48,256 nt of DNA from Candidatus Poseidoniales archaeon. GTDB lineage: Archaea > Thermoplasmatota > Poseidoniia > Poseidoniales > Poseidoniaceae. The notes under the pieces were generated by a model that was not told the origin of the DNA, made no database searches, and saw nothing but the letters and a program-made list of their open reading frames with translations. Shown here in pieces: positions 18,365 through 37,731 of the stretch. Both the position numbers and the translations under genes were made by a program. Position 1 is the stretch's first letter; the number at the start of each line of letters is the position of its first letter. Where the stretch lies: NCBI GenBank assembly GCA_003602645.1, contig QQSI01000010.1:36625-84880 (forward strand). The letters run 5' to 3'.

Positions 18365-18386
18365 CTGGTTGGCATTCGCTCTGAAT

Positions 18387-19007
18387 ATGACTACTGATGA
18401 AGAACGTCTAACCGTCGTGAACGTGGTTGCCAGCACCCGAGTTGCTGAGGAACTAGACCTACCAGATATCGCAATTCAATTGAATTGCGAATACGAGCCA
18501 GAACAATTTCCTGGTGTCGTCTACCGAGTGACCGAGCCAAAGCTTGCTATCCTCATGTTCCGTTCAGGCCGTGCAGTGTGCACCGGTGGAAAGAACGAAG
18601 ACAACATTCACACAGGAATCGAGCGCATGATCAACGATCTAAGGGCTGCAGGCATCGAAACTTGGAACCTCGACCAGGTCGAAATTGAAGTCCAAAACAT
18701 GGTTGCAACCTACGCCCTCCACTACCCTGAAGACTACCCTGGGAACGACAAATTCACTGGAGAACCACAAGCCGGTGTGCCCCGTAAATTGAACCTGAAC
18801 AACCTGACCTTCCACCTACCATTCGACAAGGTCGAGTATGAGCCAGAGCAATTCCCAGGTCTCATTTACCGCCTTGACTACCCCAAGGTCGTCTGCTTGA
18901 TTTTCGGCAGCGGCAAGATGGTGATCACCGGTGCTCGACACAAGGACGAAATCCTCGAAGCTGTTGAAATCATTAAGGACGAATTGGCAGACTTGCTGGA
19001 ATATTGA
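18387..19007 (+). CDS. tbp: TATA-box-binding protein
   Basis: Two direct-repeat saddle halves: IAIQLNCEYEPEQFPGVVYRVTEPKLAILMFRSGRAVCTGGKNED and FDKVEYEPEQFPGLIYRLDYPKVVCLIFGSGKMVITGARHKDE. Confidence 0.97.
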   Translation: MTTDEERLTVVNVVASTRVAEELDLPDIAIQLNCEYEPEQFPGVVYRVTEPKLAILMFRSGRAVCTGGKNEDNIHTGIERMINDLRAAGIETWNLDQVEIEVQNMVATYALHYPEDYPGNDKFTGEPQAGVPRKLNLNNLTFHLPFDKVEYEPEQFPGLIYRLDYPKVVCLIFGSGKMVITGARHKDEILEAVEIIKDELADLLEY

Positions 19008-19052: not shown

Positions 19053-22000
19053 TTGAGCGTGTGGCGTAGCATGCGCCCGAGCGTGACGCGAGCCATTCCG
19101 GCATTTTTGCTGGTCTTCTTGTTGTTCTCGAGCGTGCAAACTCCACTGTTCCAAAGCAGTCTTGAAAGTCCGACTGCACCCCTTTTTTCAGGCAGCCAAG
19201 ACCCTGGTGTGAGCGATGTGCCCACATGGCGAGTTGGGGACAAATGGATTTACTCCGGCATCTTTGACCCAACATTGCTCGTGACCAACACTGGCGTTCA
19301 AGCCACAGTTGGAGAGATTTATGGCGACACCACAATGGAGGTTCTCGGCATCACTGAACAGTCCGTCGATAACATGTCGGTGCTCGCCTATACCCTTCGC
19401 TCATCTGCAAACTTCGATAAATCCGGAGTTTCCCTTGAAGGCTATGATGGTAACGTCTACATCACATACAGCCAAACAGAATACCTCCGAGTCAGCGATT
19501 TAGCCAGCCTTCGAAGCGAACTTGACATGTACATTCGCTTCGTCCCGTATGGAATCTCAAGCCTGACTCAGATTCTTGGTGACATTACCATCACAACAAG
19601 TTACAGTCCAGCCTCTGAAACCTACGACTTCCCATTGCGCCTTGATGAACAGTGGACAACCACAACCACCTCATTTGCCCAATGGTCGGGATCAAGCGAT
19701 TACATCACTCCGTTCCCACCCCCAGTAAGCGACACCAACAGCACCACTTGGGAAGTGGAAAGCGTTGGCAAACCAAACAACGCCTACGGCCAAACGATTG
19801 GCTATGGTGGATGCAATGCTTCGTATGAACTTCAGTCAGTCAACAGCGATGGTGTGTCAACTGGCTACAGGTGGTATTGCCCCGAAGTTTCGAACTATGC
19901 GTGGCTCCATACAGAAGATGACATTGGCCTTACCATTGATTTCCGGCTCAAACGCTATATTCCGGTTGGTGCGAGTGGAGTTGACGAATACAGCAACCCA
20001 GGAACACGCGATGTGTGCCTCAACGTAGACCTCGAAAATCGAATCACTGCTCTAAACTCGCCAATAGGGGTGTGGGTCAACGCCTCAACATCATGTTTCT
20101 CTAACATTGACAACATTGGAATTGAATTGCGACACGAAACCACTGGTTCACTTCAATACGCCTCAACAGCAAGCAACGGTACAGCCTACTTTACGCTTCA
20201 AGTGGGTGATGCAAAGGATCCATCCGCAACCCTACTTGATTGGGCGAGCCATGGCATTGTCGCCCGGATCGATCCTTCAAGTCAATCGCCAACAACAACG
20301 GTTGGCGTCACCACAGTGACGCTTGATGAATTCATTGTCGGATTGGATTTAATCGCCAGTGAAGACCTTGCCAAGGTGCTTCGAAACCGAAGCGGAGTCC
20401 TAACGGAATTGAATTCGCTTTCTGGGTGGAATGTCCTTCCGGGTGATGAATTACTGGTCGAGGTTGGGGTACAAAACAGAGGCATCACCACCTCGGCAAC
20501 CTCAACACTCGACGTGACCGGGCCTGACGGGCAAACAACCGCTTACGTGCTCCCTCCCTTGGCAAGTTACTCCGCACACAAAGTGAATTTCAGTTGGACT
20601 GTACCAGAAGATCAATCGATTGGAGTGCTCCCAATCACATGGAACGCTGACCCGAACGATGTCAACGCTGCTGATGTCAACGAGGACAACGATATCGCTC
20701 AGTTAGCCATGTTCGTTGGCAGGCTTCCCACACCGATTGTTGAAAACGCAACCGCACTCACGCTGGAGGAGGTGACCCTGAATGCTGCGAACAGTTTTGA
20801 TGAAGACGGTGGAAACATCACCTGTGAATTTGAAATTCCGTATGATGATGGCACTCGTACCTGGGATTACATCACCATTCCTTCCGAGGACTGTAGTGTC
20901 AATTGGACTTGGATGGATGATGGCGATTACCCCGTGCAGGTAACGGTTCTCGATGAAGAGCGTGATGAAACAACGGCCACTCTCCTTGCATCGATTGGTA
21001 ACAGGGCGCCAAAAATTGAGATCAAGAGCGCACGAAGTGAGGCAAAGGTCGAACATCCAATCACGCTCTATGCGTACGCTAACGATTCGGATTCTGAAGA
21101 CATCTGGCCCGGTGTGGTCGATGTGTTTTGGCCCGACGCTTTGTGCCAAGAAGGCTACTACACCCGCGTATGCACCACGACAGCTCCCACAGAGGGGATT
21201 CATACCTTTACTGCTGTTGGGACCGATGATGATTCCTCGACAACCATGGCGACCATCGACATTCAATTCACCAACATCGCACCCCACGGTACGAGCATTG
21301 CCTTGCTGATTGATGACGCCTTTTTGGAAAGCGATGAACAGCAAATTTGGCAACTGGATGAAGATGAGATTGTCAATGTGCGTGGACAAGCGCTCGATTC
21401 AATCGATGATCTTGAAACATTGACCCACACATGGTGGCCAGACGGACAAGAACCCTCGCTGATGTACACTTATTCGGGACGAGTGTCCAACTTCCCAATG
21501 ATGTGGTCCACCTCAGGGTTGCACACCATCCGTTTGGAAGTGACCGATAGCGACGGCGTCTCGAGCGCGGTGAATGAACGCTGGGTCAATGTTCGCAACG
21601 TACCGCCAGTGATTGAACCTCTGGTCTCCATTCTTCCCATTGCGGAAGGCCAATCCATCACCATCACTGGTAACTCAACCGACACACCAAGCGATCGAGC
21701 AACGCTTGTGAAATGCTGGGATGTCGACCCCGGTATTGACAGCGATGATTTCGGTGGTGCAGACGATGATTGTGACATCAAGGGTGATGAATTGACCTAT
21801 GTGTGGAATCGCAGTGGCACTCATACGATCATCTACCACGTTACAGATGACGATGGTGCACAAACCAGCGAGGTCCTCACCGTGGAAGTGCTCAACATGC
21901 CTCCAATCGTGAGGTTGCAAAACCTTGCATGCATGGCTTACCAAACTTGTGTGATGAGCGCCGGCCAAACCATCGATTCAGCGAACGACATAGACACGTT

Positions 22001-22673
22001 GACCATTGTCTGGGACCTTGACATTACTGTTGACAGCAACGGAGACGGCATCAAAGACAACGACGCTGATTTGGTTGGTACCACTGTCCAGCACATCTTC
22101 CGCACCTCTGGCATGGTACGTGTCAAAGCCATGGCATGGGATGAGAATCCGGAACGGCCGGGCCAAGCGACAATGGTGATCGATGTCGCACCACCAGAGC
22201 GAAACTCAATCGAACAAATCAGTGCCGGACTCATAGGCGAAGAGGCGAATTCGATTGCACAATTTGGCCTTCTCATCGGGATTCTGATGTTGTTGGCCCT
22301 TCTGACCCGTGGGCGAAAAGGACCTTCTGAATCCCCTTGGGCTGGTTCTGAGGAAGGCATGCTCGACGATGCATTTGATACCCCAACTATGATTGAACAA
22401 GCACAAGCAAGACGCCCTTCAAGTCCGCCACCAATGAGCAATTTCATCAAAGAGAGTGTGGAACTACCTACACAGCAAATCGATCATTCATTCGAGGCAC
22501 CTCCAGCACCTGTGCCTGAAATGGAAAGCGAAGAAGCAGGCCCGCCAATGCCAGAGGCAGGCCTCCCTGAAGGATGGACGATGGAGCAATGGGGTCATTA
22601 CGGCCATCAGTACCTTGCCGCTCAAGGGTCTCAAAACGCAACTTTTTCCCAAACTGGCACCGAACTCAAGTAG
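19053..22673 (+). CDS. Large PKD-domain surface protein with C-terminal TM and short cytoplasmic tail (paralogue 1)
   Basis: Signal-like N-term (ATG at 19071 likely alternative start); repeated Ig/PKD-like units; TM IAQFGLLIGILMLLALL; tail motif GLPEGWTMEQWGHYGHQYL. Confidence 0.85.
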   Translation: MSVWRSMRPSVTRAIPAFLLVFLLFSSVQTPLFQSSLESPTAPLFSGSQDPGVSDVPTWRVGDKWIYSGIFDPTLLVTNTGVQATVGEIYGDTTMEVLGITEQSVDNMSVLAYTLRSSANFDKSGVSLEGYDGNVYITYSQTEYLRVSDLASLRSELDMYIRFVPYGISSLTQILGDITITTSYSPASETYDFPLRLDEQWTTTTTSFAQWSGSSDYITPFPPPVSDTNSTTWEVESVGKPNNAYGQTIGYGGCNASYELQSVNSDGVSTGYRWYCPEVSNYAWLHTEDDIGLTIDFRLKRYIPVGASGVDEYSNPGTRDVCLNVDLENRITALNSPIGVWVNASTSCFSNIDNIGIELRHETTGSLQYASTASNGTAYFTLQVGDAKDPSATLLDWASHGIVARIDPSSQSPTTTVGVTTVTLDEFIVGLDLIASEDLAKVLRNRSGVLTELNSLSGWNVLPGDELLVEVGVQNRGITTSATSTLDVTGPDGQTTAYVLPPLASYSAHKVNFSWTVPEDQSIGVLPITWNADPNDVNAADVNEDNDIAQLAMFVGRLPTPIVENATALTLEEVTLNAANSFDEDGGNITCEFEIPYDDGTRTWDYITIPSEDCSVNWTWMDDGDYPVQVTVLDEERDETTATLLASIGNRAPKIEIKSARSEAKVEHPITLYAYANDSDSEDIWPGVVDVFWPDALCQEGYYTRVCTTTAPTEGIHTFTAVGTDDDSSTTMATIDIQFTNIAPHGTSIALLIDDAFLESDEQQIWQLDEDEIVNVRGQALDSIDDLETLTHTWWPDGQEPSLMYTYSGRVSNFPMMWSTSGLHTIRLEVTDSDGVSSAVNERWVNVRNVPPVIEPLVSILPIAEGQSITITGNSTDTPSDRATLVKCWDVDPGIDSDDFGGADDDCDIKGDELTYVWNRSGTHTIIYHVTDDDGAQTSEVLTVEVLNMPPIVRLQNLACMAYQTCVMSAGQTIDSANDIDTLTIVWDLDITVDSNGDGIKDNDADLVGTTVQHIFRTSGMVRVKAMAWDENPERPGQATMVIDVAPPERNSIEQISAGLIGEEANSIAQFGLLIGILMLLALLTRGRKGPSESPWAGSEEGMLDDAFDTPTMIEQAQARRPSSPPPMSNFIKESVELPTQQIDHSFEAPPAPVPEMESEEAGPPMPEAGLPEGWTMEQWGHYGHQYLAAQGSQNATFSQTGTELK

Positions 22674-22693
22674 GAGTACCGACTCGGTGAGTC

Positions 22694-25600
22694 ATGGGTC
22701 AACTCCGACCGATTGTTTTCGGATTAATTTTTTTGATGTTCGCAACCCCCTTTGGAGCCTATGTCACATCGCCTCATTTCCTAGAGGAGGATCACAATGC
22801 ATCCCATGCAGAAGGATGGGACAAGGACATCGATGTGCCAACTTGGCGCATTGGCGACGAGTGGGTTTACGACACAAAATTCGATGTGGCACAACTCATC
22901 GCTCAAGCCAACGTTTCTGCATCATTAAACACCCTCACTGGAGAAACGACCTACACCGTAGCGGATATCTTGTTCACCACAGTTGATGGCGTTCAGACCC
23001 TCGCTTACAAACTGGATATCAGTGGAGAGTTTACCTCTGGCAACAGCGGTGCAACACTTGAAGGCGTCTCAGGACGGTTGAACATCGGGTATGACAGCGA
23101 AGACCTTGTTCGAGTTCGTGACCTTGCCGTGATCAACAGCGAATTCACGCTTGATGTCAAGTTCAGACCATTCAACCTTGGTTTTTTGGAACAAGATATT
23201 GCTGAGATTACCTTTGACACCTTTTACGACCCACCCAAAGAAAAGTACGATTTCCCTCTCCATCTTGGAGATCAATGGTACATGCCTTTCCAATCCGGTA
23301 CGGGAGTCACAGGTACATCCGATTACTTCGACCCAAGTGAATTTGACACGGCTGGTGCAGAAAACAACAGTTGGCAAATCACCGCAAAGGGAACCCCTAC
23401 TGATGGGACGGATAACATCCAGTACACCGGGTGCGGTGATTCCTACAAAATTAACGAAGTGAACGAAACCGGAGTCTCACAAGGCTACAATTGGTACTGC
23501 CCTGCTGTGCGTTATAATTCATGGATTTCAGTGTCAAACGCTGCTGGTTTCACCATCGACTGGTTGCTCAAGGAATACAATCCAACAGACTCCTACGGCG
23601 TTTCAGCAAGCTCTACACCCGGAACCCGCAACGTGGAGATTGACGTCGATATGCAATTTTTGGCAACCCTCCCAGACGCTGAGCAAACGCTGACTGCAAG
23701 TTATTTGACCTCACCAAGCGCTACACCACAAACCAACAAGAATTTGCAAGTCAGGTATGAGATCAACAATGATTTAGCAAGTCCAACCACCGATGGCAGT
23801 GGAGAAATCACCTACCAATTGAACGTCTCTAACCAAGTGGACACCACACCCTCCAGCGATGATTTCACCAGCAACGGTGTCATCGTATGGGACCCTGCAA
23901 CAGACATCATCGGGGCGACCACTATTGTGATCGATTTGTCTGTCGTAGGCGTTGATTTGGTAGCGCAAGCTGATTCAATTATCGTCAGCCGAACCCGCGA
24001 CGGTGAAACTTCAATCCTGAGCCGCGTTACGGGCTACGGAGCTTTACCAGGCGATTTGATTGGGTTCTCAATTCCCGCTCAAAACCGAGGAGTATTGACC
24101 TCTCCAGCAACGCAAATGGAAGTGACGACACCAGACGGTACGACCATCCGAGAGGAAATTCCTGCGATTCCGTCATACAGTGAAGCGAGGATCAACGTCA
24201 ACTGGACCGTCCCAGCAAACTCAGCAATTGGCAATCAGACGCTGTCGTTTACCGTCGACCCTGATGAAACGGTCACTGAGGACGCAAACAGAAGCAACAA
24301 CGACGCTCAAATCAACCTCTTTATCGGCCGGGCGCCGACCGCAATGGTCGATATTGGCGACAACAAACTCACTTTTGAAAACATCACGCTCAACGCCACG
24401 GCAAGTTTTGATGAAGACGGCGGAGATGTTGACTGTGTGTTTGAAGTTGAATCACGCCCAGGCTTGATCGATGTCCTCGAAGCGCCAGACTGTTGGGTTC
24501 AATGGAACTGGACGGATGATGGCGAATGGGCGGTCAAACTCATCGTCACGGATGAAGAACTTGATACCGACATCAAGATGTTCAATGTCACTGTCCTCAA
24601 CCGAGACCCATACGTCAACTTGTCTCTGGTACCAAGCATCGATGTTGAAACATCTGTCACCATCGATGCAACCGACAGCGGTGACATCGATACCATCTCG
24701 CCTCCAGGACAGCAAGTCAGTATTTCTTGGCCGGGCATGGCGTGCGAAGAGGGACTCACTCAGCCTACATGCACCTTCACGCCGATGGCAGAAGGCACGA
24801 TGATCATCACTGCTGTCGCAACCGACGATGACGGAGCGACTACAACAATTGAAGCACCGCTGGATGTCCTCAACGTAGCGCCAACCCTTGCCGCACCAGA
24901 ATTGTGGTACGGAGGAACGAATTTGAGCGCTGATGATGGTGTGTGGACGCTGGATGAGGATCAAGTTGCTCTCTTGCGAATCGGTGCCGACGACACATTG
25001 TCCGACCGAGATGACATCAACGTTGAGTGGTCGCCATCCGATCGAGATGCGAACTGGACAGAAACCACCCGGGGACCTGCGTCAACCGCAACAGTGTCAT
25101 GGTCCGCTTCGGGCATGCACAACATCTCGGTTGTCGCCTACGATGACGATGGTGCTCAATCGATGATTCAAACGGCCAAAGTCAACATTCGAAACGTCCC
25201 ACCTACGATCACTGGCTTGGGTTCGGATGTTCCTGTGTTTGAAGACGCAAATGTATCGTTCACCGCTATCGTTGATGACACCGCATCAGATCTGCAGACG
25301 CTTGTGGTGTGCTGGGACATGGATGGAGCAGTTGACAGCAACAGCGACGGAAACCCTGTGAACGACTGTGACCAAACTGGAATCGATATCACTGCGGCAT
25401 GGACCACACGAGGGGTTCGCCAAATCACGGCAACTGTAACGGATGACGATGGTGCTCAAGCACTGGCATCGGTCAACGTCAGCGTGCTCAATCTACCACC
25501 TTCAGCCACCATTACCAATTCCACCAGTGTCATATCGCTCATTGAAGGTGAAAACATCACCCTCTCTGGAATGACTTCTCGAGAGACTGACGGCGACAAA

Positions 25601-26398
25601 TTAACCCTCATCTACCAGTGGGACAGCGACCACATCGATGGTGATTTGGACGGAGTAAAAACCGGAGATGTTGACTTCACGGGGCCAATGTACACCATTG
25701 AGGATCTCCCAGCAGGTCAATGGACCGTACAACTCACAGTGATTGATGATGATGGTGAATCTTCCATCGATACGATTCAACTTACGGTCACTGAGCGCCC
25801 ACCCGACAATTGGATTGAATCTGTAAGCAATACAATTGGAACCGTACCTACCGCAATCATTGGTGCGCTTGGGATCATTGTTGTTCTGCTCGCTGGGTTC
25901 CTTCTGCTGACACGAAGGAAGGACAATGCCGAAATGGACAGTTTCTCCAGTTTCGCAAGCATGCCAGATGGTGAGCCACCTGCGCCTGCCACCAACGCAA
26001 CTGTACCGCAATCAATGGACTACACCGCTCCTGCCAGTCAGCAAGACATCTATGCACAGGCCGCCTATGCACCGCCAGCCGCAACCCTAGAACAGGCGTT
26101 TGCTCCGGCTCAGACCTACGCAACAGCACCAGCATCGAAGGACGACCCATTTGCTGCCTTAGCGGAACCAACGCCAGCACCTGCTGCTCTTGCCCCTGCA
26201 CCCGTGCAAAACGGACCACCATTGCCTGCAACTGGACTCCCCGAAGGATGGTCAATGGAACAATGGAACCACTATGGCGCTCAATACTTGTCTGCCCAAC
26301 AAGGCCAACCGGCTGCAATTCAACCGGTAACTACTGATACCACACCAGCATCTCAGCCATCAAGCATCTCCGGATTGCTTGATGATCTTGATTTGTGA
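22694..26398 (+). CDS. Large PKD-domain surface protein with C-terminal TM and short cytoplasmic tail (paralogue 2)
   Basis: N-term DVPTWRIGDEWVYDTKFD parallels DVPTWRVGDKWIYSGIFD in paralogue 1; PKD units; TM AIIGALGIIVVLLAGFLLL; tail motif GLPEGWSMEQWNHYGAQYL. Confidence 0.87.
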   Translation: MGQLRPIVFGLIFLMFATPFGAYVTSPHFLEEDHNASHAEGWDKDIDVPTWRIGDEWVYDTKFDVAQLIAQANVSASLNTLTGETTYTVADILFTTVDGVQTLAYKLDISGEFTSGNSGATLEGVSGRLNIGYDSEDLVRVRDLAVINSEFTLDVKFRPFNLGFLEQDIAEITFDTFYDPPKEKYDFPLHLGDQWYMPFQSGTGVTGTSDYFDPSEFDTAGAENNSWQITAKGTPTDGTDNIQYTGCGDSYKINEVNETGVSQGYNWYCPAVRYNSWISVSNAAGFTIDWLLKEYNPTDSYGVSASSTPGTRNVEIDVDMQFLATLPDAEQTLTASYLTSPSATPQTNKNLQVRYEINNDLASPTTDGSGEITYQLNVSNQVDTTPSSDDFTSNGVIVWDPATDIIGATTIVIDLSVVGVDLVAQADSIIVSRTRDGETSILSRVTGYGALPGDLIGFSIPAQNRGVLTSPATQMEVTTPDGTTIREEIPAIPSYSEARINVNWTVPANSAIGNQTLSFTVDPDETVTEDANRSNNDAQINLFIGRAPTAMVDIGDNKLTFENITLNATASFDEDGGDVDCVFEVESRPGLIDVLEAPDCWVQWNWTDDGEWAVKLIVTDEELDTDIKMFNVTVLNRDPYVNLSLVPSIDVETSVTIDATDSGDIDTISPPGQQVSISWPGMACEEGLTQPTCTFTPMAEGTMIITAVATDDDGATTTIEAPLDVLNVAPTLAAPELWYGGTNLSADDGVWTLDEDQVALLRIGADDTLSDRDDINVEWSPSDRDANWTETTRGPASTATVSWSASGMHNISVVAYDDDGAQSMIQTAKVNIRNVPPTITGLGSDVPVFEDANVSFTAIVDDTASDLQTLVVCWDMDGAVDSNSDGNPVNDCDQTGIDITAAWTTRGVRQITATVTDDDGAQALASVNVSVLNLPPSATITNSTSVISLIEGENITLSGMTSRETDGDKLTLIYQWDSDHIDGDLDGVKTGDVDFTGPMYTIEDLPAGQWTVQLTVIDDDGESSIDTIQLTVTERPPDNWIESVSNTIGTVPTAIIGALGIIVVLLAGFLLLTRRKDNAEMDSFSSFASMPDGEPPAPATNATVPQSMDYTAPASQQDIYAQAAYAPPAATLEQAFAPAQTYATAPASKDDPFAALAEPTPAPAALAPAPVQNGPPLPATGLPEGWSMEQWNHYGAQYLSAQQGQPAAIQPVTTDTTPASQPSSISGLLDDLDL

Positions 26399-26409
26399 AC
26401 GGTGAGTGT

Positions 26410-26982
26410 ATGGCAAGTCTCTGGCAATTTTTTGGTTTACCAGACCCCGAGGCCGGGCAGAATGGAAGGCGGAATGAAACACAACAGCCCGCGATGATGC
26501 CTTCCGCCACTCAGCAGCAAATCGCCCCAAAGCCGATTGAAAAGCCTCAACTCGCCGAACCAATTCCAGAGCCTGTTGGCGTGCAACCACCACGTAGAGA
26601 AATTCCACTCGGATGGCAAGGACCCGTCACTTCGGATGGTGAACCATTCCACGACTTAGGTGCGCTGCACAAAGCGACACCTGTCACTCCAAACAGAGCT
26701 TTGCGTTACATTGCCCCCGATGTGATGAACCGCATCCCTACGCGCGGAATCACAAAACGCGTCAACCAGGGCGATACGGTGATTGTCGATTTACGGCCTC
26801 TTGTCCATATGGATACGCATCAGAACGTCTGTCGGAGGGAATTGAAACAGATGAGTGACGATATTGGTGTTGGCGTGTTTGCCCTTGATGCGGAAGACAA
26901 ACTCCTGTTAATACCCGGAAACGATGTTGTTGTCGATGTCCAAAGCCACGAACTCGGATTAGGCGCTTTGATAAAGCCGTGA
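26410..26982 (+). CDS. sepF: SepF-like cell-division protein (DUF552 family)
   Basis: C-term GDTVIVDLRPLVHMDTHQNVCRRELKQMSDDIGVGVFALDAEDKLLLIPGNDVVVD is SepF-like; N-term MASLWQFFGLPDP resembles a membrane-targeting helix; GGTGAG Shine-Dalgarno just upstream. Confidence 0.82.
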   Translation: MASLWQFFGLPDPEAGQNGRRNETQQPAMMPSATQQQIAPKPIEKPQLAEPIPEPVGVQPPRREIPLGWQGPVTSDGEPFHDLGALHKATPVTPNRALRYIAPDVMNRIPTRGITKRVNQGDTVIVDLRPLVHMDTHQNVCRRELKQMSDDIGVGVFALDAEDKLLLIPGNDVVVDVQSHELGLGALIKP

Positions 26983-27003: not shown

Positions 27004-27025
27004 CCTTTCGACTCTAGTATTGGCC

Positions 27026-28342
27026 ATGAGCAAATTTGCAAGTTTTAGGACGACCTCCACAGGGTCCTATCTTGCTTTGTTTTTTGCGTCAGGCCTCGCA
27101 ACGGTCGTTTTCATTTTGACAATGGTGTACCATTACACCACAAAATCGGCATATTTTGAGGTCCTATCCGCAGATTACACCTCAATGATCTACATCATTC
27201 TGGCCTGGGTATGCTTGGGTTGGCTCATGGCCCTAATTGCGGGAATTGGATTTGATGTTTTACCCCTTATCCATGGCGCAGTCCCCTTCCACGAATCCAC
27301 AATGAGGCAATTCATCATCCTCAACATCAGTGGACAATTCTTCCTCACCTTGTCGACATTTATGGCAACACGAGAGATGATTGATGAATTTTCAACTGTA
27401 GGCATTGTATTGCTTTCTTTGGGAGTGCTCTTGCTAGGCCTGCCTGGAAGGCGCCTCGTATCCGAATCTAAAATGTCGAAAGAAAAGGACGAAGTTGGTG
27501 TCATGTCACTGCTCCCGGGTGCTGTGTTTCCTTTTTTTGCCGCCATCATCATCAGCTGTTGGTTGTTAAGAGACACCGCAGGGATGCTCGAACTCGGGCG
27601 ATCTGTGATGGTCATGCTCTACATTCTTGTTACCGTTGTCATTATCGTGAGTCACTTCAATCGCCGATTGAATTGGAACATCATCCCTCCTGAGAAATTA
27701 CAAACCCGATTGATTGTTTTTGCAATATTCCTCTGTCTTCACATCCTTTTCTCATTCCTCGCCGGACGTGAGGATTCGAACGCACACACACTACTGGTGC
27801 AGATGAGTGATTATTCACTCGGATTAGCGCTCTTGTGGGCATTCATTCTGTGCAACCCAATTGCCGTGGCGAAAAAGGCCTTATTCAACGGGGGAATGGC
27901 CCATAATCGATTGATCTTTGCCGCTCTCTGGATGCTGCCGTTTAGTTCGTTCCACGCTTTCAATGCTTCACACTATATCGATCGACCTGGAACACCCGGG
28001 TACGCCACTTTTCTCAGCACATCTGCCCTTCTGGCCATTTGGGGCTATTCCATGTACCTGCATGAGGACCACCTGCACATCAACATCCACAAGCGGAGTT
28101 CAAGCCCGCTTTTCTTGATGTTCTTCTTGATTGGGTTTGTTTCCATTCAAATTTTGTTCATCAAAAATTGGATGAACTTGGGCCCAACCAACACTGAACA
28201 AATCATCTGGGTTGCATCAATCGTAATTGGATCCATCCTCCTCACGGTGGATTTCCTACGTCGAACCATGCTGAGTTTGGACACCTGGCACAGAATACCG
28301 ATGTTCTATGGCAGGTACATCCAAGACAAGTCACTGGATTAA
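27026..28342 (+). CDS. Uncharacterised polytopic membrane protein (about 12 TM segments)
   Basis: Many hydrophobic stretches; conserved-looking His-containing segments LPLIHGAVPFHES and LHEDHLHINIHKR. Confidence 0.75.
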   Translation: MSKFASFRTTSTGSYLALFFASGLATVVFILTMVYHYTTKSAYFEVLSADYTSMIYIILAWVCLGWLMALIAGIGFDVLPLIHGAVPFHESTMRQFIILNISGQFFLTLSTFMATREMIDEFSTVGIVLLSLGVLLLGLPGRRLVSESKMSKEKDEVGVMSLLPGAVFPFFAAIIISCWLLRDTAGMLELGRSVMVMLYILVTVVIIVSHFNRRLNWNIIPPEKLQTRLIVFAIFLCLHILFSFLAGREDSNAHTLLVQMSDYSLGLALLWAFILCNPIAVAKKALFNGGMAHNRLIFAALWMLPFSSFHAFNASHYIDRPGTPGYATFLSTSALLAIWGYSMYLHEDHLHINIHKRSSSPLFLMFFLIGFVSIQILFIKNWMNLGPTNTEQIIWVASIVIGSILLTVDFLRRTMLSLDTWHRIPMFYGRYIQDKSLD

Positions 28343-31575: not shown

Positions 31576-34500
31576 TCAACAAGAGACCGTACTCGAACAA
31601 ATCGGGCAGGTTACCTTTCTCAACGTCATGTCTTTCACGACAAATTTCGCGTTGCAGCCAGGGCATACCACATCACGCTGAGGTGGGGCAATTCCAGGCA
31701 GTGGAGGCAAACCATCCAACGGAGGAAGGCCTCCGGGCCCCGGCAGCGGGAGTGGTGGGAGTTCTCCATTTGCTGGGAGCGCTGGTAATTCTGATGGTGA
31801 AGGAAGTGGTAAATTCACGGCAGGTGCAGGTGCAGTTTGGAGTTTCTCTGTGATTTCTGCGAACTCCCGTTGCTGCTTTCGCTTCATTCGTCTGTTGAGG
31901 CGAGCATTGCCTTCTCCAGATTCTGCTTTGGCTTCGAGGCTATCCGCAAGGCTTGGCTCGTCATCTTCCATCACCGCGACAGCCGTTGAATCAGTCACGA
32001 CCAAGTCATCTTGTTCGGTGTCGATGGCCAGAAGCGGTCCTTGGTCATCTTCGGGTTGAATCATCAATTCAATTGTTTCATCTGTTTCATCAACAATGGC
32101 AGTTGCAACCATCGCTTTCTGTTCTTCCTTTCTTCCTTTGCGAATTGACACCACAACAGCCGTGAGGAACAAAACCATGGTAAGCCCTACCACTGACAAA
32201 ATGGTGATTTGCATCTGTTGAGAACCAGGCAGTGGAGCAAGTAAGGCATCGATGAATGAACGATCGTCCACAATTGGATTATCGTCTGCAGACAAGGAGG
32301 CAAGCGTACGAAGTTTGAGGGAGCCTGAAGCTGTAGAGAGCATCACAATACCATCGTATTCCATGCCTGCAAAGCCTTCAAGGAAGCCCTGTGTCATCAA
32401 TGCAGACATCCCTGAAATTGGCTGTTGGTCCGAGTCAGTGAGCAAACCGTACCTTGTTGTTGGACCATAAGTGTTGATTTCATCATACATGATTTGAATG
32501 CCCTGTGGTGCTTCATGCAATTCAAGATTCATCACTCCTGGTGCATCGATTCTTGAAGCCTCGTCGATGCTCCAAGCGTTGTCGGTCACAGCGTAGGCAA
32601 CTTGAGCATCTCGCCCCCGGCCTTCAATCCAAGCGGCAGTGAGCACGTCATCGTCTTCCAGTTGCGTCACAATCAATTGAGCACCAGAGGTATCGTCGCC
32701 GATCGAGGATTGGAAATTCCAAGAGGAAATCGTTGGGTCCCCATGTGAGTACATCAAGCCTACACGATCGATTCCAGTGACATCATCTCGCATCTCTTGG
32801 TATAAGATGTGCAGATTTTCGGAACCGTAGGCTACAGCGAGTGAGTCACCCTTTGATTGGCGAATATCGATGTTTGAGAGGACATTGATTGGATTGCCCC
32901 AACTTGTGGGGCTGTCCGGATTCATCGAAACAAGTGTGAAAATTGAGGTTACGTCCTGCCAAGAACCCCCTGTTGCTATGTCGCGGTGGTAACCAGCAAG
33001 GACGACCGTATCGTCGTATTCTGTGAGGGCGAGGCCCCAATACGAGCCTTCAGACAGTTTGACTGGAGGCATTTGATAGTGAACAGGTGTGATCATTTCA
33101 ACCTTTGAGAGCGAGGTCATTCCAATGTTGGTCAGCGTGTATCCGTCAGCACTCACGCTCTTGCGCGTCCAAGCTGCATGGATTGCTCCATCCTCTCGCT
33201 CAAGCACAGCAAGTTCTCCACCCCACATATCTTCGAGCAAGATGTCTGTTTGAATTGACATTGAGGAAGTGATGCTTCTGGCGTGGAGTTCGCCATCGAC
33301 GGTGGTGAACAACAGTGCCCCGTCCTCAAGACCAATGAAATCGACAGGTACCTCACCATCAGAAAGATCGATGCTCACTTGAGAGCCCAAGGATACATCG
33401 TCAACCACGAGCATAAATCGATGCTCGCTAAATGCTGCCTCGACTCCGTTGCCGAGTAAGACCGCTTTGAATTCGATTGCACCGGTCGTTTCAATGGGCA
33501 ATGCTTGGAATGAAACCGAAGCATAGCCTGAACTTGTGTCGGAACCCGGAACCACCATGATGTCTTGTTCGCCAACCTGAATCCATCCGTCTTCCGACCA
33601 ACGCTCGAGCCTCATATCCAAATCAAGAGCATCAGATTGACCAAGGTTATCGATTCGCAACCGAACCGTGAAGGGTTCTTCCGGCACAGGAATGTTAGGG
33701 CTGGTCGTCACGGCTCCTGGCAAGAAGCGAAGCATCGCTTCCACAGGACGTTCTTCGACTTCGAATGTGAAGGTGTAGACGTTGTCCTCCGGCGTTGGAT
33801 CCGCATGTTGGCTGGTCGGGTCAATGATGATCGACACCTCTTGTTGCCCAGCTTCTGTGGCCCACCAATACAGTGTCACCTGTTGGCTTTCACCTTCGTT
33901 TAGGATTGAAATACTGGTTTCGGAGGGATATGTTTCCGAGTTCGATCCCTCGGCGTCCAGACGCACGTACACATCGGTAGCATCCAAATCACCGACATTG
34001 GCAATCGTAAAGTCGATTTCAAGCACCGTTCCGGCGACCGCGGAGTAAACCGGCAGGCCTTGATCCATAATTTCAACTGAACCTTGATAGGTAAAATCGG
34101 GGGCTGCAGGCATGTTGTCAACGGTGTATGTGCGGCGGATTGTATCGGTAACCACGCCACTCTCATTGACCATTCTGAAGCTCAAGCGATGTGAACCATC
34201 CTCAACGGTGTTTGAGTTCCATGTGAAGGACCAATCTTGACTTCCCACTTCCATAAACTCGAGTTCTTGTCCGAGGTTCCATTCTCCACTGTCCACTTTG
34301 AATTCAAGGCGGTCAGGCTCAAGCCCTTCAGCAGTCCCGGTAAATTCCACCGACCCCTCAAGCGAGGTACCAACTGATGGACCAGCGAGGGTGACCGCCA
34401 TACGAGCGAGATTGATGTAGCGAGCTGCAATTGAAGATTCATCACCATCGTCGCTGATGGCACGAGTGAGGATAAGCACGTATTCTTCGTCGCCACGGAT

Positions 34501-36516
34501 CCAGTCGGATTTCACAAACACATCGAGGTACCAGTTTTCAACGGTGCCGCCAGCATCAACCCATCCTTGGAGTTCCCGAACAGTACCAGATTCGAGATGT
34601 TGCTCAAGACGAACTTGAACAGCATCGTAGTCGGCATCATCGCCGTTGATTGTAGTGCCGGAGACACGCGACCTATCACCTTCAATCCACCATGTGCCGT
34701 TGTTTGGAGCCTCCATCGTGACGTGATCTCCGGTGCCGTTTCCTGTTGGAGGTGGCGTGATGATTCCACCGCCTTCAAGCGGTGTACATGAGCGTTCAAG
34801 AACGGTGTCAATGGCACAAGAGGCATCGATGAGCCCGAAGCCCCAATCTGAATTCCAACGGTCAGAAACCGATGGCTCCGAAACGCTTCCTCGTTGTTCG
34901 GAAGAATTCCGCAATATATCCTTCACTTCCTGTGGCGAGAGTGAGGGTTCAGCTTGCAGCATTGCTGCTACGATTCCCGAAGCAATTGGGGTAGCCATGC
35001 TTGTGCCGTCCTTTTCATCGTATTCATTTGAGGCAAGTGGACGCCCTGGCTGGCCTGGGAATGAAGACCCCGTTTGGGCGGTGGCTGACATAATTCCAGA
35101 ACCATACGCCGTAATGTCGGGCTTCAGTTCATCCCAGTCATCGTTATCATTGTCGCTCAGTCGAGGACCCGTGTTGGAATAATCCGCAACGTTGTCATTG
35201 GTTCGATTAATTGTTCCACGGTCGGTCGCCGCTCCGACTGAAATTGCAGAGTCTGCACTTGCCGGAGATGGCACTCTGTTGGTACCGTCGTTGCCCATGG
35301 CGACGACGCAGACAATCGATGCGTTGACTGCGTCGTTGACCAATCGCGCTTCGGCTCCGGTTCCATTGTCACCTTGGTCCCCAGGGTTGAGGGGCGACGA
35401 GGCGGAGCCAAACGACATCGAAGCAACTTGAATTCCCCTGCTTGAGGCATTGTTGTTCCAGTCGGTGTTCACATTGTCGATGATCCATTGAATGCCGTTG
35501 AGGGAGGCTTGTGAATTGGTGCCGCCGGTATCGGTGAGGACCTTCACGTCGACAAGATAGGCGCCCGGGGCAGTGCCCATGTGGACTCTTGATGAATCAC
35601 CTGTGCCCACAACTGAACCCGCAACATGCGTGCCATGGCCGTTTCCATCGTCTGGGTCTTGAGTGCCATCGGTCGCACCAGCAGAGGATGTCGCATCGTA
35701 GCCTGCGACCCATTTTTGGTCGTCATAGGAAGTTGGGTCCTGGTCAGGTTCATCGTCCTCATCATCGAAGTCGTTGAGGGATTCATGCTCGTTGTCAACG
35801 CCTGTATCCAACACCGCTACAACGACGTTTTCGCCTGTGTACCCCCGCTCGTAAGCGGTCTGTGAATACACTTCGGAAGGGCGTGCTCGGGACGCTTTGG
35901 CAGCAACATCATTCGATGGAACCATGACGTTTTGCATTTCAATCACGACCACGCCGTAGGATGCATAGATGTCCATCAGCGCACTGATTGGCACCTTGTC
36001 CACTGCTACAGAATCAATGTCACTGAGCACTTGGAACCAAGCGCCTTCTTCTTCGCCAACCCATCCATGGGCTGTAAGAATAGCACGCAACGTTTCGATT
36101 TGACTGACCTCAGGTGCCCACGCATAGTCGACGACGATCGCCACAGTCTTGCGCCCATCATCACCAATGATTGCCGTTGGAGAAATTGATTCAGCTCCAG
36201 CCAAGACGCGCTGCAAGCGATCATCCATGCCATTCCAATCGAGGTCCGGACCGTATCCTTGCCACCAGTTCATGGCTTCAGCCGAAGGTCGACCGTCCCG
36301 ACTGAACTCTCTTAGAGGTCGCTCACACAACGAATCACCACACATCAACGGCGGAAGGCCATCAATGAGAATTGGTTCGGCAAACAAAGGCTCTACGACG
36401 GGGCCCTGTTCGGCTGGCTGGGTCGCAATTGCACCCAAGTCAGCCACCAAAAAAACGGCCACCAGAAGCAGTGAAATGAGGGGTGTTTTTCTCGAAGGCT
36501 TGTTCATCAAATCCAT
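31576..36516 (-). CDS. Giant S8 subtilisin-like protease with CARDB-like domains, C-terminal TM and cytoplasmic zinc ribbon
   Basis: VVAVLDTGVD, GHGTHVAGSV and GTSMATPIASG triad motifs; CARDB-like DFTIANVGDLDATDV; TM near QITILSVVGLTMVLFLTAVVV; C-term CPGCNAKF...CPICSSTVSC. Confidence 0.92.
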   Translation of the reverse strand: MDLMNKPSRKTPLISLLLVAVFLVADLGAIATQPAEQGPVVEPLFAEPILIDGLPPLMCGDSLCERPLREFSRDGRPSAEAMNWWQGYGPDLDWNGMDDRLQRVLAGAESISPTAIIGDDGRKTVAIVVDYAWAPEVSQIETLRAILTAHGWVGEEEGAWFQVLSDIDSVAVDKVPISALMDIYASYGVVVIEMQNVMVPSNDVAAKASRARPSEVYSQTAYERGYTGENVVVAVLDTGVDNEHESLNDFDDEDDEPDQDPTSYDDQKWVAGYDATSSAGATDGTQDPDDGNGHGTHVAGSVVGTGDSSRVHMGTAPGAYLVDVKVLTDTGGTNSQASLNGIQWIIDNVNTDWNNNASSRGIQVASMSFGSASSPLNPGDQGDNGTGAEARLVNDAVNASIVCVVAMGNDGTNRVPSPASADSAISVGAATDRGTINRTNDNVADYSNTGPRLSDNDNDDWDELKPDITAYGSGIMSATAQTGSSFPGQPGRPLASNEYDEKDGTSMATPIASGIVAAMLQAEPSLSPQEVKDILRNSSEQRGSVSEPSVSDRWNSDWGFGLIDASCAIDTVLERSCTPLEGGGIITPPPTGNGTGDHVTMEAPNNGTWWIEGDRSRVSGTTINGDDADYDAVQVRLEQHLESGTVRELQGWVDAGGTVENWYLDVFVKSDWIRGDEEYVLILTRAISDDGDESSIAARYINLARMAVTLAGPSVGTSLEGSVEFTGTAEGLEPDRLEFKVDSGEWNLGQELEFMEVGSQDWSFTWNSNTVEDGSHRLSFRMVNESGVVTDTIRRTYTVDNMPAAPDFTYQGSVEIMDQGLPVYSAVAGTVLEIDFTIANVGDLDATDVYVRLDAEGSNSETYPSETSISILNEGESQQVTLYWWATEAGQQEVSIIIDPTSQHADPTPEDNVYTFTFEVEERPVEAMLRFLPGAVTTSPNIPVPEEPFTVRLRIDNLGQSDALDLDMRLERWSEDGWIQVGEQDIMVVPGSDTSSGYASVSFQALPIETTGAIEFKAVLLGNGVEAAFSEHRFMLVVDDVSLGSQVSIDLSDGEVPVDFIGLEDGALLFTTVDGELHARSITSSMSIQTDILLEDMWGGELAVLEREDGAIHAAWTRKSVSADGYTLTNIGMTSLSKVEMITPVHYQMPPVKLSEGSYWGLALTEYDDTVVLAGYHRDIATGGSWQDVTSIFTLVSMNPDSPTSWGNPINVLSNIDIRQSKGDSLAVAYGSENLHILYQEMRDDVTGIDRVGLMYSHGDPTISSWNFQSSIGDDTSGAQLIVTQLEDDDVLTAAWIEGRGRDAQVAYAVTDNAWSIDEASRIDAPGVMNLELHEAPQGIQIMYDEINTYGPTTRYGLLTDSDQQPISGMSALMTQGFLEGFAGMEYDGIVMLSTASGSLKLRTLASLSADDNPIVDDRSFIDALLAPLPGSQQMQITILSVVGLTMVLFLTAVVVSIRKGRKEEQKAMVATAIVDETDETIELMIQPEDDQGPLLAIDTEQDDLVVTDSTAVAVMEDDEPSLADSLEAKAESGEGNARLNRRMKRKQQREFAEITEKLQTAPAPAVNLPLPSPSELPALPANGELPPLPLPGPGGLPPLDGLPPLPGIAPPQRDVVCPGCNAKFVVKDMTLRKVTCPICSSTVSC

Positions 36517-36571
36517 CCACTCCACCCTTTGGTATTGGCGCATGCCTTTGAGGGTATCCGTGAATTGTCCC

Positions 36572-36606: not shown

Positions 36607-37731
36607 TCATGGCCACATCAGATGTTCAGGGTGCTTCGAACATTGCAACTTTGGCCCGCCTTTGTGTTCCACAACACCCAAGGCGGACTCACATTCCATA
36701 CACGTCGCTCGTTCAGCAATATGCTCCATCCAAGCCTGTCGGGTTTCCGGTTCATCCGCAGACGCCATCAGCTTAGCGAGTGGTTCTCGAATCGAACGGG
36801 GCACATTCATGCCTTTCGAGGTCCAGGGGTCTTCTAATTCTGAAAGATCAACCATTGTCGCTTTCATGTGGTTTAGTCGCGCACGGATGTCACTCGAAGA
36901 AGAGGGACCCCCATCTTCAACACCAAGCGGATACGGACCTCCTTTGGCGATGACTGGTACAAGGAAGTACGCTGCTAAGAAACCGCCTAAATGTGCCATA
37001 TGGGCAACATCGCTCGCCTGTTGCAAGCCCAACGTTTGGTAGGCCCGAAAAACTTCAAGGCCGAAGTAAATCAAGGCAATGACATACACTGGCCACTTTC
37101 GAATCAAAATGAGGGGAAAGGCGATTTCGTCGCGTGGCCATCCAGCTAAGTAGGCTCCAAACAAACCAAAAGCGGCACCTGAGGCCCCTAGTGAGGGTGT
37201 TGTGGAATCAAAATTCATCAGCCACCATGACACAGAACCACCCACTAAACCGACGAGATAGATCAAAGCAAATCGACGAAGACCAAGCCGCTGTTCAAGC
37301 GGAACTCCAACCAGAGCAATGACGAGAATATTTCCAAGAACATGCGTTGCGTCGAATGGATTGTGCAAAAATCCAGCAGTGATGAGCGTATGGGACCATT
37401 CAATCACGCCAGTGCGTTCCGGTATGAGCCAAAAATCTGACCACATGTACCATGAATCACCATCCATGAGTCCTTGCCGGATTGCAAACAAGTAAAGCAC
37501 CTGAACCAAGTAGCCCAAAAGCAAGCCAACAGTGAGCGATAATGCCAGCGAGGATTTGTGACGAAACGCCACGCTAATCGGCCAAAGTAAAGCGGAAGAC
37601 CAGAGCAAAAGGAGGGCCCATTCGCCCACACCAAATGCATCGATTCCAGTGGCCACAGCATGACCATAGCGGGCGAACTTTTGAGTGCATTGGCGAAGCA
37701 TATGAGGGGGAGCATTGATGGCAACAGCCAC
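36607..37731 (-). CDS. Rhomboid-family intramembrane serine protease with C-terminal Cys motif
   Basis: HVLGNILVIALVGVPLEQRLG; active-site GASGAAFGLFGAYL; H in AHMAHLGGFLAAY; C-term CMECESALGVV...LQCSKHPEH. Confidence 0.9.
   Translation of the reverse strand: MAVAINAPPHMLRQCTQKFARYGHAVATGIDAFGVGEWALLLLWSSALLWPISVAFRHKSSLALSLTVGLLLGYLVQVLYLFAIRQGLMDGDSWYMWSDFWLIPERTGVIEWSHTLITAGFLHNPFDATHVLGNILVIALVGVPLEQRLGLRRFALIYLVGLVGGSVSWWLMNFDSTTPSLGASGAAFGLFGAYLAGWPRDEIAFPLILIRKWPVYVIALIYFGLEVFRAYQTLGLQQASDVAHMAHLGGFLAAYFLVPVIAKGGPYPLGVEDGGPSSSSDIRARLNHMKATMVDLSELEDPWTSKGMNVPRSIREPLAKLMASADEPETRQAWMEHIAERATCMECESALGVVEHKGGPKLQCSKHPEHLMWP

Follow-up and report, generated by a model that had tools for sequence, protein, structure and literature searches.

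A divergent SepF gene linked to giant PKD surface proteins across Poseidoniales: a candidate envelope-division module

Introduction

The analysis presented here bears on how archaea without a rigid wall coordinate their protein coat with FtsZ-driven constriction. The closest described systems centre on SepF, whose known ligands are C-terminal stretches of FtsZ, LDDFI in Methanobrevibacter smithii and DLDV in C. glutamicum (PMC8178401). In Haloferax, PRC-barrel proteins form a complex with SepF (work cited in PMC10936438). A survey recorded several Thermoplasmata genomes with FtsZ but without SepF (PMC10936438), and the gene context of archaeal sepF is variable according to Pende et al. (PMC8178401). 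Here we focused on a stretch of 48,256 nucleotides (nt; hereafter, the window) from the 1.76-Mb, 85% complete genome of a Candidatus Poseidoniales archaeon, whose nearest named relatives are Candidatus Poseidoniaceae of Marine Group IIa. The window encodes two large surface proteins (hereafter, PKD1 and PKD2) followed by a SepF-like protein, SepF-A; SepF-A and SepF-B are the names given here to two SepF paralogues. The comparison covered the order Poseidoniales, with Poseidoniaceae and its sister family (f2), and a sister order of the same class (f3). Sequence comparison indicates that divergence hides SepF in Poseidoniales, that these archaea have two SepF copies, and that giant surface proteins are linked to one of them throughout the order. 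In the open-licence literature we found no account of SepF in Poseidoniales nor of a PKD-sepF gene pair.

SepF-A is identified by profile and predicted fold

The SepF-A gene (positions 26,410 to 26,982 including the stop, + strand, ATG start at 26,410) encodes 190 amino acids (aa). The protein had no Pfam or NCBIfam match, and a single-sequence PDB search was also empty. No protein of this genome matched PF04472 (SepF) at 1e-3 or at E 10, and SepF-A relatives reach this family at E 0.04-0.2 only. A scan of the phylum detected PF04472 in 160 of 293 genomes, with only three from the sister family and, among the matches listed, none from Poseidoniaceae. The Pfam cut-off is a detection threshold and not a biological property; as SepF is missed by Pfam here, profile-profile and fold comparisons were needed for its identification.

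With hhalign, a 31-sequence SepF-A alignment matched Thermoplasmatota SepF with 95% probability (E 2.9e-8, 103 columns), spanning the FHDLG/YIDL motif and the core, and the order-wide SepF-A alignment matched SepF with 93% (E 2.8e-7). The best match in a PDB profile search was 3zie, a weak one (E 0.66). The AlphaFold model of SepF-A had a core pLDDT of about 90, and its top 12 PDB matches in Foldseek were all SepF, with TM-scores to the target of 0.61-0.81. By profile and predicted fold, the third gene is a divergent SepF, which bears out its description as SepF-like in a first-pass annotation of the window; its anchoring of FtsZ is putative.

SepF-A comprises a hydrophobic N-terminus (MASLWQFFGLPDPE; 26,410 to 26,451, + strand), which is a putative membrane-targeting segment, then a linker, the FHDLG motif and the SepF core at aa ~95-180. 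The hydrophobic N-terminus was present in each SepF-A examined. Its hydrophobic moment, which bears on a possible amphipathic membrane-binding helix, was 0.4-0.5 in most sister-family sequences and only ~0.2 in most Poseidoniaceae ones. The arrangement of N-terminus, linker and core, the predicted core fold and the co-occurrence with FtsZ and PRC-barrel proteins are all as in archaeal SepF (Methanobrevibacter smithii, Haloferax volcanii; PDB 7AL1, 3ZIE, 3ZIG). Unlike these, SepF-A lies below Pfam detection, is linked to giant PKD genes, and has a second paralogue, SepF-B, alongside; its N-terminal region is long and contains the FHDLG and W..GP motifs, which are specific to the lineage.

FtsZ homologues were detected in all 34 genomes tested; most Poseidoniales have two or three, and the source genome has two. 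Their C-termini are unusual in Poseidoniales, mostly IEFVN-like in FtsZ1 and FQRFD-like in FtsZ2. Besides these, most Poseidoniales tested have a short third FtsZ-family protein, as at G000:C11:21572-22468 (L039, L079), where it is without a long C-terminal tail and ends in LLAGIRPSD. PRC-barrel genes were found in 26 of 26 genomes tested. Like the PRC-barrel proteins of Haloferax, PKD1 and PKD2 would join SepF in an archaeal divisome as partners other than FtsZ. The PRC-barrel genes found here are small, however, and Poseidoniales have their own, so PKD1 and PKD2 would be additional partners.

The PKD-sepF gene pair is conserved across the order

PKD1 (19,053 to 22,673; 1206 aa, TTG start), PKD2 (22,694 to 26,398; 1234 aa) and sepF-A are co-oriented on the + strand with gaps of 20 nt and 11 nt. 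We infer that the three genes are co-transcribed, because the gaps are mostly 5-20 nt. A Shine-Dalgarno-like GGTGAG precedes both PKD2 (22,686 to 22,691, + strand) and sepF-A (26,401 to 26,406, + strand), the latter site and the 11-nt gap being as first annotated. A GTG listed at 26,395 lies upstream of the likely sepF-A start.

SepF-A was found in 110 of 116 Poseidoniaceae genomes and, across the order, in 144 of the 146 genomes sampled. In all 36 Poseidoniaceae loci examined (11 genera), sepF-A has a PKD gene of the PKD1/PKD2 family 5' of it on the same strand, and one of these loci has a 2.2-kb insertion between the two genes; four genera (g3, g5, g8, g9) have one PKD gene in place of two. 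In the sister family the PKD gene and SepF-A occur together in 15/15 loci. The gene for TATA-binding protein (TBP), located at 18,369 to 19,007 (+ strand) in the window, is an upstream neighbor kept in both families; together with mevalonate kinase it is linked in 12 of the 15 sister-family loci, and the remaining three are on short contigs. None of the window genes 3' of sepF-A is kept in these 15 loci. The conserved block ends at sepF, and the linkage is strong yet not specific to division genes. The first-pass annotation had hinged its proposal on a conserved neighborhood, and the pair is indeed kept in both families of the order.

A comparable arrangement exists in the sister order, where a canonical sepF sits directly behind the gene of an exported PKD/M6-peptidase protein, within ~20 nt or overlapping. 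This protein, 1155-1221 aa long, is of a different kind from PKD1 and PKD2. It combines PKD repeats with an M6-peptidase domain, and its transmembrane (TM) helix is C-terminal. The flanking genes also differ, with HMG-CoA reductase, squalene/phytoene synthase and saccharopine dehydrogenase present and TBP and mevalonate kinase gone. Because these genomes are syntenic, they carry about the weight of a single independent observation, and the adjacency may be due to chance. In one f3 genus (among L153-L157), the sole detected SepF is without a clear hydrophobic N-terminus (MSAAPPQMRRIP...). Among 30 sepF loci from other Thermoplasmatota classes, no PKD-type neighbor was seen within the ~1.5 kb of available flank.

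PKD1 and PKD2 are duplicated and PKD2 has its own C-terminal peptide

Archaeal exported surface proteins with PKD and CARDB domains are S-layer-like and adhesin-like. In PKD1 and PKD2 the hydrophobic segment at the N-terminus, the repeats of Ig-like domains and the C-terminal TM helix follow this pattern, whereas a family-specific N-terminal domain and long tails with conserved motifs set them apart. The two proteins align end to end with 33% identity (E = 0, 599 bits) and have in common the N-terminal motif DVPTWRVGDKWIY / DVPTWRIGDEWVY, PGTRDV / PGTRNV and TDDDGAQ. Their earlier description as duplicated membrane proteins of ~1200 aa, 20 nt apart and bearing these motifs, is thus accurate. 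Both exceed the Pfam cut-off for PKD repeats (PF18911 and PF00801), and CARDB was found in both too.

Hydropathy scans and residue positions placed a hydrophobic segment at the N-terminus of each protein and a single TM helix towards its C-terminus, the helix lying at 22,248 to 22,319 in PKD1 (aa 1066-1089) and at 25,850 to 25,921 in PKD2 (aa 1053-1076), both on the + strand. From its N-terminus, PKD1 has the hydrophobic segment, the family-specific domain, CARDB, then PKD repeats, the TM helix and ~120 aa of cytoplasmic tail. The predicted tails of the two proteins are about 115-160 aa, against the short ones supposed earlier. The PKD ectodomain family and its N-terminal domain were confined to the sepF-A locus in the Poseidoniaceae genomes tested. 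PKD1 is absent in several genera with one PKD gene only, and PKD2 is the paralogue that adjoins sepF-A.

The tails carry two kinds of conserved sequence. One is GLPxGWTMEQWxxYG, present in PKD1 as GLPEGWTMEQWGHYGHQYL (22,560 to 22,616, + strand) and in PKD2 as GLPEGWSMEQWNHYGAQYL (26,234 to 26,290, + strand; predicted helix). It occurs six times in this genome, in PKD1, PKD2 and four unrelated exported proteins. The first-pass annotation had held that a tail motif found on unrelated secreted proteins would speak against its proposal, and in this part the finding goes against it. We rejected GLPxGWTMEQW as a SepF-specific signal; by its sequence distribution it is a lineage-wide cytoplasmic tail signal of large exported proteins, general rather than SepF-specific. 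The four other proteins (L060, L061, L080, L081) are single-pass and 1123-1682 aa long, and the motif is predicted to be helical in them.

The other is found at the very end of PKD2, which runs ~35 residues beyond the generic motif and ends in LLDDLDL-COOH (26,375 to 26,395, + strand). LLDDLD[LFI] or a close variant is the C-terminus of the sepF-adjacent PKD protein in 92 of 97 distinct Poseidoniaceae loci, which are related by descent, so that this is not a count of independent events. The last six residues are conserved at 2.9-4.1 bits per position, versus 1.5-2.8 in the preceding five. The pattern D[DG][LF]D[LFI]-stop has one match in the source genome, at PKD2, and zero control matches. 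The ending bears a likeness, no more than suggestive, to the end of FtsZ that SepF binds (PMC8178401): both are acidic-hydrophobic peptides at the extreme C-terminus, but the one in PKD2 is carried by the tail of a membrane protein and not by FtsZ.

A second SepF paralogue

The source genome has a second SepF-like gene, SepF-B, at G000:C7:4352-4984 (L037). Of 33 genomes tested, 27 have SepF-B; these comprise every Poseidoniales tested and none from the sister order. It matched canonical SepF in hhalign with 96.9% probability (E 1.4e-10) and 3zie at E 2.7e-5, and by these profile matches it is, of the two paralogues, the one nearer to canonical SepF. The best PF04472 matches in the sister family are also SepF-B (3.5e-6 at best); taking the weak PF04472 matches of that family as the PKD-linked gene was rejected, since the strongest are SepF-B. 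Most SepF-B sequences are without a hydrophobic N-terminus.

In a tree of the SepF core, SepF-A forms a strongly separated, long-branched clade, and SepF-A, canonical and f3 sequences are kept apart. Because of the long branches, the tree supports neither a branching order among SepF-A, SepF-B and canonical SepF nor a date for the duplication. The SepF-B gene of the source genome adjoins a gene for a ZPR1-like zinc protein. Poseidoniaceae SepF-B sequences (among L177-L204) have a QSSLDSF-like sequence in the N-terminus, which we take to be reminiscent of a PCNA-binding box.

Envelope-divisome coupling and its alternatives

The best single explanation for these observations is envelope-divisome coupling, with PKD1, PKD2 and SepF-A as an envelope-division module of Poseidoniales, and judging from the sequence evidence we hold its chances to be about even. 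Inferring from the SepF family, SepF-A would bind the inner membrane face via its hydrophobic N-terminus, and its core would bind FtsZ-type filaments or its sister SepF. PKD2, and perhaps PKD1, would have one end at the cell surface and the other in the cytoplasm, where the LLDDLD[LFI] C-terminus of PKD2 would dock onto a partner, with SepF-A the likeliest candidate. Such a module would bring surface protein to the constricting membrane or keep it there, or else report the state of the envelope to the division ring. The named proteins and a seven-residue peptide make envelope-divisome coupling testable in abundant uncultured marine archaea.

Several observations weigh against coupling, and some of them feed other explanations. 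The main rival is passive synteny, in which a lineage with small genomes keeps its gene order (FeS oxidoreductase, mevalonate kinase, TBP, PKD, sepF) and the products do not interact; this is possible, if doubtful. Neither TBP nor mevalonate kinase has a role in division, yet both are about equally linked, so the linkage alone is no proof of function. The part of the first-pass annotation that coupled the tails to SepF gained the order-wide linkage and lacks a predicted contact: in an AlphaFold model of the tail fused to SepF-A, the LLDDLDF segment had pLDDT <50 and no confident docking was obtained, the alignment being shallow (20 sequences). The fusion is a natural read-through: in the loci used to build it, the stop codon of PKD2 shares a reading frame with the start of sepF, and TGA was translated as glycine. 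Mere retention of gene order fits less well with the sister order, in which the TBP and mevalonate kinase neighbors are lost and sepF still lies behind an exported PKD gene, or with the Poseidoniaceae loci where TBP was relocated and the PKD-sepF pair stayed intact (L055, L067). The sharp end of gene-order conservation past sepF and the conserved C-terminal peptide of the sepF-adjacent paralogue also argue against it. This peptide may instead serve trafficking or turnover of PKD2, for example in recognition by a chaperone or protease, unrelated to SepF. A few proteins at other loci in relatives (L338, L343, L344) likewise end in DDLDL, and GLPxGWTMEQW shows that the lineage uses shared cytoplasmic tail motifs. 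We consider this unlikely, as in the source genome and two others the ending is limited to the sepF-adjacent protein, and PKD1 and the four other tail-motif proteins of the source genome do not have it. The ending is also not universal among sepF-adjacent proteins: PKD C-termini of the sister family are mostly different (EALFEE, LLDEEE/EEE, EDDLDLDF), and in one genus of the sister order the tail of the PKD/M6 protein is only ~10 residues and basic.

The existence of SepF-B raises a further difficulty for coupling, since the anchor of FtsZ may be the paralogue nearer to canonical SepF and not SepF-A. SepF-A could then be a SepF-derived membrane adaptor for surface proteins, acting outside cell division in coat assembly, secretion or anchoring, while SepF-B does the FtsZ work. 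Its greater divergence, evident in its weaker Pfam and 3zie matches and its long-branched clade, is consistent with this. We nevertheless regard such an adaptor as somewhat unlikely, as SepF-A retains the family layout of hydrophobic N-terminus and core, whereas most SepF-B proteins, having no such N-terminus, would depend on a partner for access to the membrane. A division of labor after SepF duplication would combine envelope-divisome coupling with the second paralogue: SepF-A would be membrane-facing and coupled to surface proteins through an FtsZ-mimicking LLDDLD[LFI], and SepF-B would supply a canonical core without a hydrophobic N-terminus. We think this arrangement, based on sequence comparison, quite improbable as a whole. 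If true, a surface protein would either vie with FtsZ for SepF or draw FtsZ to it, and the coat would be linked directly to the division ring.

Other genes of the window

A multi-pass membrane protein of 440 aa with no Pfam match is encoded 37 nt after sepF-A (27,020 to 28,342, + strand). It was found in part of the Poseidoniaceae only and is fast evolving, with 24-31% identity in most relatives beyond the close ones. Further downstream, the window encodes a giant subtilase of 1655 aa (31,576 to 36,543) with CARDB and a zinc-ribbon-like cytoplasmic C-terminus, beside a rhomboid-family protein (36,607 to 37,731). Exported proteins of the sister order (L153, L155, L156) likewise end in cysteine-rich, zinc-ribbon-like tails.

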